Source of the DNA: a virus
Length of the DNA stretch: 25,364 nt
Strand: one strand, 5' to 3'
IMG/VR virus record: IMGVR_UViG_3300049847_000064
Span: 1-25,364 of that record
The notes beneath the pieces were generated by a model. The model was not told the origin of the DNA, searched no databases, and worked only from the letters and a program-made list of their open reading frames with translations. This document shows, piece by piece, positions 10,626-25,364 of this stretch (positions within the stretch are counted from its first letter, which is position 1; every line of letters starts with the position of its first letter). A program made the position numbers and the translations under genes.

Positions 10626-10658
10626 TCACACTCACACTCACACACTGAAGGCCTAAAA

Positions 10659-11005: not shown

Positions 11006-11047
11006 ATAAAATCATTCTAATAATCTATTCTAAAGAGTGGATTATTG

Positions 11048-11063
11048 GGTGCGATTTTGCACC
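11048..11063 (+). promoter_or_regulatory. hairpin / inverted repeat before the 224-aa gene
   Basis: GGTGC-GATTTT-GCACC, a 5-bp perfect stem with a 6-base loop, ending 24 bases before ATG 11088. The arms are the NtrC half-site bases, but in the opposite arrangement (GTGC first), so it is not a standard NtrC site. It may act as an mRNA leader hairpin. Confidence 0.45.
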
Positions 11064-11087
11064 ACTTCAATTTTGAAAGAGTCTATT

Positions 11088-11762
11088 ATGTCAAACGTAT
11101 CTAACCGTCACAATGTTAACTTGTTTATATCTGGTGAATCCAAGCCCCTAACTGGGCAACGATTGTCTAAGGTAGGATACAAGGGCACACCAGAGAATAA
11201 AGCTCGGGGATTCAAAAGTATATGCGTCTCTGTTCCGTTTGTTTCCCTTTCACAGTCAGATATGGATATCTATTCGGAAGCTTTTGAACGATTGATTGTG
11301 CAATCCCTGCATAATGCTCAAGATGGTATTGTGCGAAGTCTTTATGAATCATCCAATGGCACCATTAGTTCAGTGAGTGATGATGATTTGAGCATTCAAA
11401 ATTGTCTAGCTTATATTGAGGCAGAAAATAATGGTGGACGATTGAGTAAAGAGTTTCTCGAAGCTTGGTTTGATGTTGCCATTAAGGATAATCTGTCAGT
11501 GGTCATTGCAGATAAACTAGGTTTCGATGATATGAATGACACACAATTGAATGTGATTGAAAAGCATCTTAATGGATATCGAGGACTAATATCTTCCCTT
11601 GCAGGGAATAAAACAATGCTTCAACCCAATCAAATTAAATCACTAAGGAAGGTGTTAGATATCGCAACATCCGAAGATGATACAGTATCTAAACTTCGCA
11701 ATAAACTGCACACAATGGAGAATAAGCCTAAGATGGAAGATTTGCTAGAATTGATTGATTGA
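11088..11762 (+). CDS. unknown protein, main product of the sigma-54 operon, 224 aa
   Basis: ATG 11088 has GAAAGAG upstream; the frame is open slightly further, but this start fits best. The first 40 residues are basic and polar (MSNVSNRHNVNLFISGESKP, then LTGQRLSKVGYKGT). Next comes a block GFKSICVSVPFVSLSQSD with helical DIYSEAFERLIVQSLHNAQD, a Ser/Asp-rich linker near residues 85-105, and a helical C-terminal half ending in an acidic ENKPKMEDLLELID. Soluble, no signal peptide or catalytic motif that I can name. The acidic C-terminus recalls ssDNA-binding proteins, but that is too weak for a call. It is followed by a palindrome and a terminator, so it closes the operon. Confidence 0.75.
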   Translation: MSNVSNRHNVNLFISGESKPLTGQRLSKVGYKGTPENKARGFKSICVSVPFVSLSQSDMDIYSEAFERLIVQSLHNAQDGIVRSLYESSNGTISSVSDDDLSIQNCLAYIEAENNGGRLSKEFLEAWFDVAIKDNLSVVIADKLGFDDMNDTQLNVIEKHLNGYRGLISSLAGNKTMLQPNQIKSLRKVLDIATSEDDTVSKLRNKLHTMENKPKMEDLLELID

Positions 11763-11793
11763 TTCTCACACTCACACTATAGGATAACTTACA

Positions 11794-11817
11794 CTATCTC
11801 GCTATATATCGCGATAG
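11794..11817. repeat. 24-bp imperfect palindrome with TCGC/GCGA arms
   Basis: Starts CTATCTCGC and ends GCGATAG, with a TATATA centre; 20 of 24 positions are symmetrical. It lies 31 bases past the stop of the 224-aa gene and 36 bases before the terminator. It may be an operator or an mRNA 3' hairpin. Confidence 0.5.
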
Positions 11818-11852
11818 AGTATAAATATAATTTAAATAGAATCTAATTCAAG

Positions 11853-11875
11853 CCCACTAATATAGTGGGTTTTTT
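11853..11875 (+). terminator. rho-independent terminator of the sigma-54 operon
   Basis: CCCACTA (11853-11859), loop ATA, TAGTGGG (11863-11869), then six T. The stem is 7 perfect base pairs with three G-C at the base and a classical T run. It ends the 10659-11762 operon. Confidence 0.9.
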
Positions 11876-11896
11876 ATTGGATTTTAAAAATAGATA

Positions 11897-11925
11897 ACTG
11901 TCAGACTGTCAGACTGTCAGACTGT
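11897..11925 (-). repeat. 8-bp repeat array 1, unit ACAGTCTG on the minus strand
   Basis: On the plus strand ACTGTCAG occurs three times in tandem followed by ACTGT. Read on the minus strand this is three ACAGTCTG units plus ACAGT. The same unit occurs in array 2 (12187-12210) on the opposite strand, so the arrays are in inverted orientation about 260 bases apart. Confidence 0.85.
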
Positions 11926-11970
11926 ACACTCTCATGCAGTGATGCAGACACGCCTCATACAGCATACACA

Positions 11971-12008
11971 CTCTAATATACTAATATAAGCTCTAATATA
12001 CTAATATA
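11971..12008 (+). repeat. 18-bp direct repeat in the AT-rich segment
   Basis: CTCTAATATACTAATATA occurs at 11971-11988 and 11991-12008, a 20-bp period. The unit is itself two near-copies of CTAATATA. It may be a DNA-unwinding element or a protein site. Confidence 0.8.
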
Positions 12009-12081
12009 TAGGGGTATATATATTTAATTTTAAATTTTAAGTGGGGGTATAAAACACACCCTAAGATATACTACTTACTTA

Positions 12082-12115
12082 ATACTATCTATCTTAGAGT
12101 ATTAAGAGATAGTAT
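12082..12115. repeat. hairpin-forming inverted repeat
   Basis: ATACTATCT (12082-12090) and AGATAGTAT (12107-12115) are perfect 9-bp complements. Inside them CTTA (12093-12096) pairs with TAAG (12103-12106), giving a 13-bp stem with a 2-base bulge and a 6-base loop. There is no T run after it, so it is not an obvious terminator. Confidence 0.7.
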
Positions 12116-12149
12116 CTAAAGACTAGAATCTTATCTTATATGCAGGGCA

Positions 12150-12178
12150 TTGACATGCGCCCATGCAGTGTGTACCCT
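12150..12178 (+). promoter_or_regulatory. possible rightward promoter, perfect -35, weak -10
   Basis: TTGACA (12150-12155), 17-bp spacer, TACCCT (12173-12178; only 3 of 6). The start would be near 12185, so the second 8-bp repeat array (12187-12210) would lie at the start of the transcript, an operator-like position. TTGACAT and GTGTA before the -10 are shared with the stronger promoter at 16194. Confidence 0.4.
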
Positions 12179-12186
12179 ATAGGCTT

Positions 12187-12210
12187 ACAGTCCAACAGTC
12201 CAACAGTCTG
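12187..12210 (+). repeat. 8-bp repeat array 2, units ACAGTCCA, ACAGTCCA, ACAGTCTG
   Basis: Three tandem 8-bp units on the plus strand; the last is identical to the unit of array 1 at 11897-11925 on the opposite strand. All units share ACAGTC. See the finding on paired inverted arrays. Confidence 0.85.
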
Positions 12211-12241
12211 CAACTTAGGATTTTCTAAAATCTAAACAATT

Positions 12242-12565
12242 ATGAAAAAGTTTCGTCCTTATTTTACTCTAGCAGAATTAAAACATCTGCACTCACTATC
12301 ATTTAAAGATTCTCAAATATCCCATCTCACGCGATATCTAGAATCTTATATCAATCAAATTGATAATGGTTTTATATCATCTCAATTAACTGTGAAAGGA
12401 AAGAAAAGTATAGAAGATAAATTAGAATTAAATTCTTCTTCTAGAGAATCTTCTAAAGAGTCTCTTACAAAATTCGAAAGATATCAATCTGAAAGATATC
12501 TAAATAATGAAATGTCACCAACTGAGGAGGCAGAATATGAAAAGTCTATGGGAATTTCTTTCTGA
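12242..12565 (+). CDS. hypothetical protein, 107 aa
   Basis: Begins MKKFRPYFTLAELKHLHSLS. No good Shine-Dalgarno; AGGA is more than 20 bases upstream. Residues 1-50 look helical (TLAELKHLHSLS and RYLESYINQID). The second half is charged and rich in Ser, Glu and Lys, ending TEEAEYEKSMGISF. It is the first gene after the repeat-dense region, so its product is a candidate for acting on those repeats, but no DNA-binding motif is clear. Its last 29 bases overlap the next gene and include that gene's ribosome-binding site. Confidence 0.6.
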   Translation: MKKFRPYFTLAELKHLHSLSFKDSQISHLTRYLESYINQIDNGFISSQLTVKGKKSIEDKLELNSSSRESSKESLTKFERYQSERYLNNEMSPTEEAEYEKSMGISF

Positions 12566-12662
12566 AGTATATTCAATCTGGCCAGATTTCTGGCTATTTA
12601 TATTTATCATCTCTGCATTCTTTGCAGGATTTTATCTTGATGCAAGGGAGCTTTTAAAATGA
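12537..12662 (+). CDS. 41-aa single-span membrane protein
   Basis: A short ORF with an excellent ribosome-binding site (GAGGAGG, 6 bases before ATG 12537). MKSLWEFLSEVYSIWPD is followed by a hydrophobic span FWLFIFIISAFFAGFYL and a short charged tail DARELLK, so one transmembrane helix is expected. It overlaps the gene before it and its TGA overlaps the next start (ATGA). Small single-span phage proteins include holins, antiholins and superinfection or membrane-remodelling factors; nothing here decides between them. Its early-region location argues mildly against a holin. Confidence 0.65.
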   Translation: MKSLWEFLSEVYSIWPDFWLFIFIISAFFAGFYLDARELLK

Positions 12663-12835
12663 AATGTAATTATCATTCTCAAGCAGTTAAATTTAATTCT
12701 CTTCGCATAGGAGCTAAATTAAAATTGAATGAAACAGAATACATTAAAGTATCTTCTAGAACCATTCGACCATTAAATGCTTTACATAGAGTATTTTATG
12801 TTTTTCTAGATTCTAAAGTATATCCGATTCAATGA
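12659..12835 (+). CDS. hypothetical protein, 58 aa
   Basis: ATG 12659 overlaps the preceding stop (ATGA) and has AAGGGAG 8 bases upstream, so it is probably coupled. The product (MKCNYHSQAVKFNSLRIGAK at the start) is basic, with beta-like LKLNETEYIKVSSRTIRP and VFYVFLDSKVYPIQ. No recognised motif. Soluble small protein of unknown role. Confidence 0.6.
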   Translation: MKCNYHSQAVKFNSLRIGAKLKLNETEYIKVSSRTIRPLNALHRVFYVFLDSKVYPIQ

Positions 12836-14210: not shown

Positions 14211-14507
14211 ATGACTCATTCTACTCAGACAGCTATTCTACAAGATTTTCATCTGGCACCAATCCATATTTCTGTTTGTGATAAATACTATATTCTTTAT
14301 TGGGAAGCTAAGTATCTCTATACTCAACTCCTAAAGAATTCAGGGCGCATCATCAAAGAAAAGATTTCATTCACACCAATCTTTAAAGATGGTATAAATG
14401 AAGAATATCTAGGAATGAATCCAGATAAAGTTATTCGTCTTTCTTTCAGGAAACTTAAGTATAATCCTGGAGGTTATGTAATTATTCGTTCTGCAAATGG
14501 AGTCTAA
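14211..14507 (+). CDS. hypothetical protein, 98 aa
   Basis: Start set at ATG 14211, one base after the previous TAA, with GGTGA 5-8 bases upstream; ATG 14184 in the same frame would overlap the previous gene. The product begins MTHSTQTAILQDFHLAPIHI and has YYILYWEAKYLYTQLLKNSG, an aromatic helical block, then FKDGINEEYLGMNPDKVIRL and a beta-like end GGYVIIRSANGV. No family recognised. Its final codons form the ribosome-binding site of the helicase gene. Confidence 0.6.
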   Translation: MTHSTQTAILQDFHLAPIHISVCDKYYILYWEAKYLYTQLLKNSGRIIKEKISFTPIFKDGINEEYLGMNPDKVIRLSFRKLKYNPGGYVIIRSANGV

Positions 14508-14508
14508 A

Positions 14509-16149
14509 ATGAATACAATATCTAAATCTAAACTAACAAAATTACTTGCAAAATACAGAGAACAGAAATCTCCTCCTATCCCTGTATCTTCTCCTATAAT
14601 CAAAGAAGATTCTTCTCAGATAGTAGATAAATATGGTAATTCAATTACTCTAAATGCTAAACAAAAAGAATTCGTAGAAATTGCAGGGCGCCAGGGAAAA
14701 TCGGCTGTATTAATTGGTGCAGCTGGTACAGGTAAAACAACTACTCAAAGAGCAGTTACACAAGAATTAATTCTTTCTGGACATGCAGGAGTTTTAGATC
14801 CTCAAGGACATAAACATTTAAAAGTTGGAACTCCTGGAATTATTATCTGTGCCTATACTCGTAGAGCTGTGGCAAATATAAAAAGAAATCTTCCTTTAGA
14901 TTTACAAGATAATGCAATTACAATTCATAAACTCTTAGAGTATCAACCAGTCTATTCAGAAGTAATTGATCCTGAAACTGGAGATACTAAAACAAAAATG
15001 AGTTTTGAAGCTGCTCGTAATATTGGTAATCCTTTACCTCCAACAATTAAATGTATTATCTTTGAAGAAGCTTCAATGATTGGAACCGATCTTTATAAGG
15101 AAGTTATAAATGCATGTCCCCACAATCCACAACTTATCTTTCTCGGTGATATCCAGCAGTTACCGCCGGTATTTGGGCCTGCCATTCTCGGCTTTAAACT
15201 TTTATCATTACCCGCTGTGGAACTCACGGAAGTATATAGGCAAGCATTGGAGTCTCCGATTATTTCTTTGGCGCATAGAATTCTTTCTGGAAATCCATTG
15301 GATAAATCTGAATTCCCAGAATGGAAAAAACCTAACCAATTAACTATTCATCCATGGAAGAAAAAGATCTCTCCTCTAGATGCTTTAAACACAGCAGGAC
15401 AATTCTTTACTAATGCAATAGATAATAAAATCTATGATCCTGAAGAAGATGTAATTCTTATTCCATTCAATAAATCCTTTGGTACAGATGAACTAAATAA
15501 GATTCTTGCTAATCATCTAGCTCGTAAACGTGGAGCAGAAACTTATCAAGTTATTGCAGGATTTAATAAGATTCATTTATCTCCAGGCGATAAAATTCTC
15601 TATGATAAGGAAGATGCAGTTATTCTAAAAATTGAATCTAACCCAGCTTATACTGGTGCACGTCCAGTTTTACATTCTAAAACTCTAGATTATTGGGGTT
15701 TTAATCCAGTTCTAGAAGAGGATTCTTCTGAAGATGTAGATATTGATTTCATGCTTACTCAGATTGCAAATACTTCAGATGATTCTAGAGTCAGGGCAGC
15801 TTCGCATATTATAACTGTGAGAATGTTAGATTCTGATCAAGAGATTAAAATTGAAAAAGCTTCTGATGTAAATTCTCTAATACTTGGATATGCTTTAACT
15901 GTTCATAAATCTCAAGGATCTGAATGGAGGAAAGTATTCTTTGTCTGTCATCAGTCTCATGCAACTATGATTCAAAGAGAACTACTTTATACAGCAGTTA
16001 CTCGAGCGCGGGAGGAATTATATATCATCTGTGAGCCGGAAACTTTTGTAAAAGGAATTACTAATGCAAGAGTTAAGGGAGTTACTCTAGAAGAGAAAGC
16101 TGAATTCTTTAAAGGTAAGTTAGAAGATGGCTATAACTTAGAAGGTTAA
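14509..16149 (+). CDS. SF1B DNA helicase, RecD/Dda/Pif1-like
   Basis: 546 aa from ATG 14509 (GGAG 6 bases upstream). Motif I is GAAGTGKTT at residues 70-78, motif Ia lies around IIICAYTRRAV (111-121), motif II is IIFEEASM (183-190, with EEAS where DEAS is usual), motif III is GDIQQLPP (213-220), followed by a TEVYRQA arginine motif. Near the C-terminus are motif V (YALTVHKSQGSEW) and motif VI (YTAVTRAREELYI). These define a RecD2/Dda-type 5'-3' helicase that unwinds duplex DNA at the fork or in recombination. An insert near residues 385-460 is acidic (EEDSSEDVDID). The bases coding motif III (15121-15180) are clearly richer in G+C than the neighbours. Confidence 0.9.
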   Translation: MNTISKSKLTKLLAKYREQKSPPIPVSSPIIKEDSSQIVDKYGNSITLNAKQKEFVEIAGRQGKSAVLIGAAGTGKTTTQRAVTQELILSGHAGVLDPQGHKHLKVGTPGIIICAYTRRAVANIKRNLPLDLQDNAITIHKLLEYQPVYSEVIDPETGDTKTKMSFEAARNIGNPLPPTIKCIIFEEASMIGTDLYKEVINACPHNPQLIFLGDIQQLPPVFGPAILGFKLLSLPAVELTEVYRQALESPIISLAHRILSGNPLDKSEFPEWKKPNQLTIHPWKKKISPLDALNTAGQFFTNAIDNKIYDPEEDVILIPFNKSFGTDELNKILANHLARKRGAETYQVIAGFNKIHLSPGDKILYDKEDAVILKIESNPAYTGARPVLHSKTLDYWGFNPVLEEDSSEDVDIDFMLTQIANTSDDSRVRAASHIITVRMLDSDQEIKIEKASDVNSLILGYALTVHKSQGSEWRKVFFVCHQSHATMIQRELLYTAVTRAREELYIICEPETFVKGITNARVKGVTLEEKAEFFKGKLEDGYNLEG

Positions 16150-16292: not shown

Positions 16293-16904
16293 ATGACTGA
16301 CTCAATCAATGTAAATGTGGACAACACTGTTGATCTAAAGGAATTCAAATTCCGCTTTAAGAAAGACAAGTTAGGCAATCAGCGTCCCACAGTAGAACTA
16401 AAACTACCTGTTCCTAGTGTTGAAGGAATTGTTTCAATTCTAGAACGTGGCGGAAAAGGTTTAGAACTACTACTAGATGTAGTTTCTGATACAATTCGTA
16501 GCGCTGCTGCTAGTTATGTTGCAGATGACGAAAAGATTTCTCAGACTTCTTTCCCTGTAGAAAAGATTCTTTGGGAAGCAATTGCAAATGCTCCTCGTGC
16601 AGAACGTCGTTCTATTGCAGAAGAAATTTGGGAAGCTTTTGCCAAAGATTATATCGAAATCATGCCTTCAGTTACTGGTAAGTCTGTTGAAGCAGTTACT
16701 AATGCTACTGTTGTTTTTCTTAAGAAGTTTACTATTGTTAAGACCAACAAGGAAGTTCTTGCTAAGCTAAAAGAACAACTCGGTCTGTACATGGAACATT
16801 CCAAGAATGCAGAACAGTTTGCAGAAGTTCTAGAACTACTACTTGCTAAGGTAGATTCTTACCTGAATGCTAATGATACCGAAATGCTGATTGCAAATCT
16901 GTAA
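16293..16904 (+). CDS. conserved-looking early phage protein, 203 aa
   Basis: Driven by the strong promoter at 16194; AAAGGTAA lies 8 bases before ATG. It has a basic N-terminal block (EFKFRFKKDKLGNQRPTVEL) followed by mostly helical, acidic sequence (SVEGIVSILERGGKGLELLL, then IRSAAASYVADDEKISQ and EVLELLLAKVDSYLNAND). No catalytic motif, membrane span or zinc motif. The gene uses a narrow set of codons, as highly expressed genes do. A DNA-binding or structural role in replication is possible but unproven. It is followed by a structured non-coding region. Confidence 0.75.
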   Translation: MTDSINVNVDNTVDLKEFKFRFKKDKLGNQRPTVELKLPVPSVEGIVSILERGGKGLELLLDVVSDTIRSAAASYVADDEKISQTSFPVEKILWEAIANAPRAERRSIAEEIWEAFAKDYIEIMPSVTGKSVEAVTNATVVFLKKFTIVKTNKEVLAKLKEQLGLYMEHSKNAEQFAEVLELLLAKVDSYLNANDTEMLIANL

Positions 16905-24548: not shown

Positions 24549-25364
24549 ATGCAAGCCGGAACTGGAGATTTTATTTCCGAGTACATATCCTATGCCTCAG
24601 AATCTTCCGAGGTTCCAGCAACATTTCATAGGTGGGCTGTAATCTCTGGCATTGGTGCAATGTTAGGTAGGCAGTATTACTTTAATCACGGACATTTTAC
24701 TCTCTACCCTAATACCTATTGTATGTTGATAGGATCACCGGGCACACGGAAATCTTCTGCAATTAAATTAATGAAGAAGATTCTGATTGAGGCTGGTTAT
24801 AATACAATTGCTGCGGATAAGACTACTAAGGAAAAGTTCTTAATGGATCTTGCCGGAGAGACTGGCGAAGAAAATAAGAAACTTTCACCTGATGAATTAC
24901 TGGATCAAAACTTATTTGGAGACTCAGATGGAAGTCCAGGAGCAGACGCAGAAATATTTATTATGGCCGATGAATTCAACGACTTTTTCGGAAACGGAAA
25001 TATTGAATTCATTAGTTTGCTTGGTACTCTTTGGGATTATTCTGGAGTTTATAAGAACAGAATCAAAAACGGGAAGAGCATCGCAGTCACTAATCCTACT
25101 ATTAGTATTCTTGGCGGTAATACTCCTACAGGTTTTAGTCTAGCCTTTCCAACAGAAATTCTTGGACAAGGTTTCTTCTCTCGAATCTTACTAATTTATG
25201 GAGAGCCTAATGGAAAAAGAATTGCTTTTCCTAAAGCACCTTCTCAACAATCAACCTATAATTTAATTAAGTCTCTTAAAGAACTTAGGTTACATGCATT
25301 AGGAGCGGCTACATTAACTACTACAGCAGAAAGATTATTTGAGAAAATTTATTCTCATAGAATC
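24549..25364 (+). CDS. DUF3987-like P-loop protein, partial (cut by right edge)
   Basis: ATG 24549 opens 272 codons with no stop to the last base. MQAGTGDFISEYISYASESS starts the protein. FHRWAVISGIGAMLGRQYYF then precedes a Walker A GSPGTRKSSAI near residues 63-73, and an acidic Walker B-like block IFIMADEFNDFF lies near 136-147. LGGNTPTGFSLAFP and GQGFFSRILLIYGEP follow. This matches the layout of DUF3987-type ATPases coded beside phage primase/helicase genes; a replicative helicase or helicase-primase role is plausible. The upstream TGTAATACACCT is not a good ribosome-binding site. The C-terminal part lies outside the window. Confidence 0.7.
   Translation, partial: MQAGTGDFISEYISYASESSEVPATFHRWAVISGIGAMLGRQYYFNHGHFTLYPNTYCMLIGSPGTRKSSAIKLMKKILIEAGYNTIAADKTTKEKFLMDLAGETGEENKKLSPDELLDQNLFGDSDGSPGADAEIFIMADEFNDFFGNGNIEFISLLGTLWDYSGVYKNRIKNGKSIAVTNPTISILGGNTPTGFSLAFPTEILGQGFFSRILLIYGEPNGKRIAFPKAPSQQSTYNLIKSLKELRLHALGAATLTTTAERLFEKIYSHRI

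Follow-up and report, generated by a model that had tools for sequence, protein, structure and literature searches.

Positions 11,897 to 12,210 of the window, which is the whole 25,364-base virus record analysed here, hold two inverted arrays of an 8-bp unit around a central A/T-only run. We consider this region to be a replication origin of the iteron type that is unwound at a central element, at a probability of roughly 0.6. The original prediction had already read it as an origin or initiator-binding region; this is still the best reading, and it is strengthened by the conservation of the whole layout in relatives.

The window is a phage fragment related to PaP2, 119X and PaMx41 of the Fredfastierviridae. 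The minus-strand genes left of about 10.2 kb encode terminase, portal and major head protein, and the plus-strand genes from 10.6 kb encode a deaminase, a Dda-like helicase, an exonuclease, a Sak4-like protein, a kinase and a family A polymerase. At the protein level, the named relatives, in which the gene order is similar, were the Pseudomonas phages PaP2, 119X, PaMx41 and their kin; further ones were EBPR podovirus 3, Polaromonas phage Tiera and Aeromonas phage P5. The records of PaP2, 119X and PaMx41 are classed under Fredfastierviridae, Jamesmcgillvirus. Judged by the homology of its helicase (approximately 38% identity over 91%) and portal (29% identity over 81-84%), and by a gene order that is the same as in family members, the phage appears to belong with this family. 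Among phage records, neither a nucleotide search with 11,500-12,700 nor a search with the 13193 protein gave a match.

The arrays are situated between the gene at 11,037-11,762 (plus strand), which adjoins them and is closed by an intrinsic terminator just left of the first array (11,850-11,875, plus strand), and the early operon, which encodes the helicase, exonuclease, Sak4-like protein and polymerase. The first gene of this operon (12,242-12,565, plus strand) encodes a 107-aa product of a family with a KYRPY motif, and the gene for the Dda/RecD-like helicase is at 14,497-16,149 (plus strand). The 5' part of a gene for a DUF3987 AAA+ replication protein is found at 24,564-25,364 (plus strand), where it is cut by the end of the window; complete homologues are present in relatives. 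Short TCACAC/CACACT tandem repeats were also observed at 10,626-10,643 of the window and at L002:2068-2089.

The left array (array 1, 11,897-11,925) consists of 3.6 units with a period of 8 on the minus strand, namely three ACAGTCTG units followed by ACAGT. The right array (array 2, 12,187-12,210) reads ACAGTCCA ACAGTCCA ACAGTCTG on the plus strand with the same period and points away from the left one. Both the coordinates and the sequences of the arrays agreed exactly with the original prediction, as did the shared unit and period and the opposite orientation, the arrays being inverted and both reading outward. The inverted match between the two sides reaches arms of 50 nt that are 74% complementary. 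In the 479-nt intergenic region the period-8 run amounted to 21 matches, and the best of 2000 dinucleotide shuffles gave 10; a chance origin of the arrays is excluded. Several tandem copies of a short unit, as in an iteron origin, are present, and in the window as well as in the long relatives G001 and G007 the units are clustered at this locus only.

The gap between the arrays is 261 bp long and contains no ORF of at least 50 aa, in line with the earlier statement that it holds no gene. It had also been called very AT-rich. Its G+C content is 33% vs 37% for the window, so that the description is only in part correct; it is a 26-nt A/T-only run at 12,015-12,040 that is conspicuous. This run, the proposed unwinding element, is the strongest local feature of the gap (none of 200 shuffles had a run as long) and takes the same relative position in relatives. 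It is bordered on the right by a GTGGGGGTA box (12,041-12,049, plus strand), which takes the form ATACCCCnTA in other relatives, and its left edge is overlapped by AGGGGTATA (12,010-12,018, plus strand). The direct repeats and hairpins formerly noticed in the gap are real: an AT-rich direct repeat of 20 bp in 1.9 copies is located at 11,971-12,008 (plus strand), and an inverted repeat ATACTATCT/AGATAGTAT, a potential hairpin, at 12,082-12,115. The single-strand DNA fold of 11,890-12,220 was 5 sd below that of shuffles, in part because the arrays are complementary to each other. An RNA element was rejected, since the Rfam search gave nothing above the gathering score; the best match, Trp_leader, reached 33.2 bits vs a gathering score of 41 and spans the terminator hairpin.

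The original prediction had proposed looking for the same paired arrays at the same place in relatives. A first set comprised 19 loci fetched by the helicase and the 13193 protein, and a second one 58 loci with a helicase alignment, many of them distant. We kept 56 regions upstream of helicases that were at least 36% identical; these include the window, several named phages (L061 is PaP2) and near copies such as L014 and L016. Period-8 matches were found in 20 of the 56 regions, more than for any other period, and period 12 came next with 12. In an automatic scan for arrays 150-600 bp apart, inverted period-8 pairs were detected in 19 of the 56 regions at threshold 4 and in 14 at threshold 5, and 20 rounds of shuffling gave means of 0.15 and 0, respectively. 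Inverted pairs with periods of 6, 7 and 9-12 occurred in only 0-3 of the 56 regions. The scan found no 8-bp array pair in 37 regions. Some of the pair-less loci stop short of the region, some carry degenerate or 7-, 9- or 10-bp forms, and some have none. The period was 10 in L042, 9 in L040 and irregular with steps of about 10 in Jamesmcgillvirus (the latter two by eye), and 7 in L134. The unit itself varies, ACAGTCTG in the window being replaced by GCAGTCTA, GCGGTCTG, TAGTCACT, TGGCATTG, GTTACACT or CACAATGA in relatives. What is conserved is thus the layout of the arrays, but not the sequence of their unit.

The layout was further examined in 21 loci, chosen by eye as those in which both arrays are visible. 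Arrays were set by eye in L003 (left array), L004, L011, L030 and L040. L016 was excluded as a near copy of L014, and L006, L007, L019, L037, L041 and L055 were excluded for weak or single arrays. In the pairs of this set the arrays were inverted and pointed outward, with an inner gap of 219-425 bp. In every one of the 21 pairs, the longest A/T run lay at a relative gap position of 0.37-0.62, so that an AT-rich element beside the repeats, as in iteron origins, is present by sequence; its length exceeded that in shuffles at p<0.05 in only nine loci. A C4/G4 tract, typically TTTTgATACCCCnTAAA or TTTTAAGTGGGGGTA, was found at most 12 nt from the run in 18 loci. At L125:2912-2964, a further array (6.6 units) runs in the opposite sense on the outer side of the usual left array.

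The same layout was obtained by blind pattern scans and from a separate genome collection. Exact matches to three array sequences were sought in 2.9 million viral contigs, which yielded 13 stretches, four of them (L119-L122) already in the set. By tblastn, 11 of the 13 carry at least one gene of this phage family; L124 shows an inverted pair, but none of the genes matched within its 4.6 kb. The contig L118 is unrelated: it is rich in repeats, with GTC-rich period-8 ones in many positions, and does not match the phage family. Apart from L118, a partner array was present in seven of the eight new stretches (L117, L123, L124, L126 and L128, and by eye L125 and L127), and in the eighth, L129, the contig stops 92 bp past the array. 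Furthermore, 17 loci came from scanning the contigs of bacterial and archaeal genomes, and helicase identity was at least 52% in six of them. Four of these six have 8 kb upstream. An 8-bp pair is present in L131, and L134 contains a 7-bp pair and a central A/T run; in L133 and L135 there were only weak matches, judged to be chance. An 8-bp pair was not found in the remaining two, L130 and L132, with 2.9 and 1.5 kb upstream. L132 and L133 are on one 54.8-kb contig, NZUJ01000115, which is binned with a bacterial genome and carries the same helicase twice, approximately 43.6 kb apart, as expected of a circular or concatemeric phage assembly.

The two arrays of one genome resemble each other more than those of different genomes do. 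Folded unit profiles were compared for the 19 period-8 loci, leaving out L040 (period 9) and L042 (period 10). The similarity of left and right array was 0.75 within one genome and 0.57 between different genomes, and when the pairings were permuted, none of 10,000 random ones reached the observed mean (p 1e-4). That the arrays change together within a genome points to one trans-acting protein reading both as the simplest reason; gene conversion between them would be another way to keep them matched.

The region was compared with known systems. The lambda O iterons and the P4 type I iterons are iteron origins, and such origins of phages, satellites and plasmids likewise have tandem short repeats near a replication operon together with an AT-rich element. 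The present region differs from them in having two inverted arrays, some 220-430 bp from each other and with a period of mostly 8, and no homologue of RepA_N, O or P4-alpha was identified. Ribbon-helix-helix operators, such as met boxes and omega heptads, are tandem units with a period of 7-8 bp at promoters and resemble the arrays in these respects; unlike them, the arrays have periods of 9 and 10 in relatives, and the models of the two neighbouring proteins had no such match. The iteron origins compared also included RepA_N iterons, as described in the accessible part of PMC7145576. In the accessible part of PMC4010727, archaeal chromosomal origins are described as having an AT-rich centre, inverted ORB repeats and an adjoining conserved gene, the repeats being diverse and paired with their initiators. 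Inverted repeats flanking an AT-rich centre beside a conserved gene are also found here; in contrast, the repeats are tandem 8-mers, the phage is one of bacteria by its relatives, and Orc1/Cdc6 was not identified. The same part of that source describes for Haloarcula a G-rich inverted repeat just inside the ORBs. In the phage loci, the 70 nt inside the left array contained more C than G in 19 of 21, and inside the right array G was in excess of C in 14 of 21.

The main rival is that the arrays form a bipartite operator, at which a repressor would bind both arrays, loop the DNA and silence the early-operon promoter, leading to turbid, carrier-state growth of the kind reported for Shea; we regard this as rather unlikely. 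Paired arrays would suit such looping, and a gene of no assigned family adjoins them. The cultured relative Shea persists as an episome, forms turbid plaques, gives superinfection-resistant clones and has terminally redundant ends (PMC13348215). Moreover, the promoter TTGACA-17-TACCCT (12,150-12,178, plus strand) stops 8 nt short of array 2, which therefore starts at about +1, as had been predicted. A general consensus scanner missed this promoter because TACCCT shares only 3 of 6 positions with TATAAT. A minus-10 of the form TAYCCT instead of TATAAT is common to the window, L003, L004, L029 and L030 and may mark a special early promoter. Ten of the 21 loci have a promoter pattern that touches the right array; in the other 11 it is not at the array, being not seen in ten and 104 nt beyond the array in L050. 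Since the promoter is not constant at the array, the general role of the arrays is not that of an operator, and an operator role would be secondary. A repressor loop also needs no conserved mid-gap A/T run with a G/C box, and the products of the neighbouring genes 11037 and 12242 had no family match of any kind. The combination of initiator and repressor roles that had been suggested could hold at best in the clade whose promoter and array 2 are in contact (10 of the 21 loci).

If the region is an origin, the candidates for the protein that binds the arrays are the adjacent 11037 family and the AAA+ DUF3987 protein. In 17 of the 18 loci having both, the 11037 family lies at most 600 bp from an array, with no fixed orientation or side. 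By hhalign, it is related to the 16293 protein (probability 94.7, E 6e-8), a paralogue encoded after the helicase gene (16,293-16,904 of the window), and neither family had a PHROG or confident Pfam match. The model of the 11037 product was good (mean pLDDT 87.6), and the structure search with it gave no match (best E 0.65 in PDB and 0.33 in BFVD, best Z 4.9 with VIA). The 8-bp period prompted the idea that the 12242 product is a ribbon-helix-helix protein. This was not supported by structure and profile searches, which were themselves inconclusive (Foldseek best E 7.4; profile vs PDB sequences best E 0.31; VIA best Z 3.4 for 4dnn_B, with rmsd 5.2 and 45 aligned). No known DNA-binding fold was found among the candidate proteins by search.

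The DUF3987 protein was present in the window and in each of the five long contigs that were examined. Of 20 further records, 11 contained it, and the remaining nine are fragments of 10.8-28.3 kb. With regard to a P4-type ori/crr, which would call for a primase-helicase with an iteron-binding domain, the protein matches PHROGs families named DNA primase and helicase, and its C-terminal part, in an alignment read by eye only, may be a winged helix. The search of its profile against PDB sequences gave no Orc protein, and in the PaMx41 record, similarity to an Orc2 structure by HHPred is noted. According to the accessible part of PMC5862659, DUF3987 domains are predicted to be helicases of mobile elements. 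Co-variation between unit and protein was computed on loci having TerS. For TerS, helicase, 13193, 11037 and 16293, r was 0.78-0.82 on 28-36 pairs, and for 12242 it was 0.86 on 21 pairs; TerL, exonuclease, Sak4 and 17886 had only 6-15 pairs. On shared pairs, unit similarity thus tracks the gene families about equally, a pattern that is accounted for by descent alone and singles out no binder.

It is improbable that the arrays are a packaging site, where the small terminase would bind and the genome would be cut in or near the gap. The terminase genes are 1.7 kb to the left, and both ends of the GenBank records of PaP2, 119X and PaMx41 fall within the homologous gap, which prompted the idea that genome ends lie there. 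It was dropped on the ends of other records and contigs. The records of TF17, Neko, 20Aug470, FBPa48 and PaMx32, of the same genus, break elsewhere, and the Tiera record, rearranged after PhageTerm according to the part of its description that is accessible, starts near the small terminase gene and not in the corresponding gap. In eight of eight long contigs (41.5-46.9 kb) the arrays were at least 2.2 kb from the contig end, although circular assembly could hide a fixed end; end repeats of 114-127 bp, as in circular assemblies, occurred in three of five contigs. Nor did small-terminase similarity track unit similarity better than that of other genes. Short tandem repeats flanking a promoter resemble plasmid centromeres, but a partition site of an episomal phage, bound by a small DNA-binding protein, is highly improbable, as a centromere needs no central A/T run and the annotation tables of PaMx41 and 119X, in which many genes are unnamed, name no partition ATPase or filament protein. 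The persistence of Shea as an episome (PMC13348215) would suit a partition site; such persistence also needs an origin.

For the origin, a switch of cumulative GC skew at the arrays had been anticipated. An extremum was indeed found 0.2 kb (G001) and 0.4 kb (G007) from the centre of the arrays, but it is a maximum, whereas a minimum is usual. There was only a local bump in G006 and the window and no clear feature at the arrays in G002 and G003, and PaMx41, 119X and P5 showed a broad minimum around the divergent region, where gene direction also changes. Since the sign in close relatives is opposite to that of a usual origin, the skew neither proves nor refutes the origin. No origin mapped elsewhere turned up in the accessible literature. 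By title or abstract, no paper was found to describe this origin (PaMx41/119X/PaP2, Jamesmcgillvirus, Tiera, EBPR podovirus, 8-bp phage iterons) in a coverage outside which most subscription papers lie.

Taken as an origin, 11,897-12,210 would be the place where an initiator binds, the DNA melts, replication starts and autoregulation occurs. A phage-coded initiator would bind both outward-facing 8-bp iteron arrays; once bound, the arrays would place the intervening 260 bp under constraint and cause melting of the central A/T run with its G/C boxes. The helicase and the family A polymerase would then be loaded at the melted run. Early transcription from 12,150 would start at array 2, and the same protein could damp it in this clade. 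More speculatively, the region may be one half of a new replicator-initiator pair common to a large group of phages, in which 7- to 10-bp head-to-tail units in two inverted arrays around an A/T run would be read by an 11037-family protein of undescribed fold that starts replication and restrains early transcription, allowing carrier-state persistence; we put this forward only tentatively. If the region is indeed the origin, sequence alone would reveal the origins of a whole podovirus group, in many metagenome contigs as well as, less regularly arranged, in cultured Pseudomonas phages, and an unmapped step would become directly testable. The search for the initiator would gain a framework, and the episomal carrier state described for Shea a mechanism.
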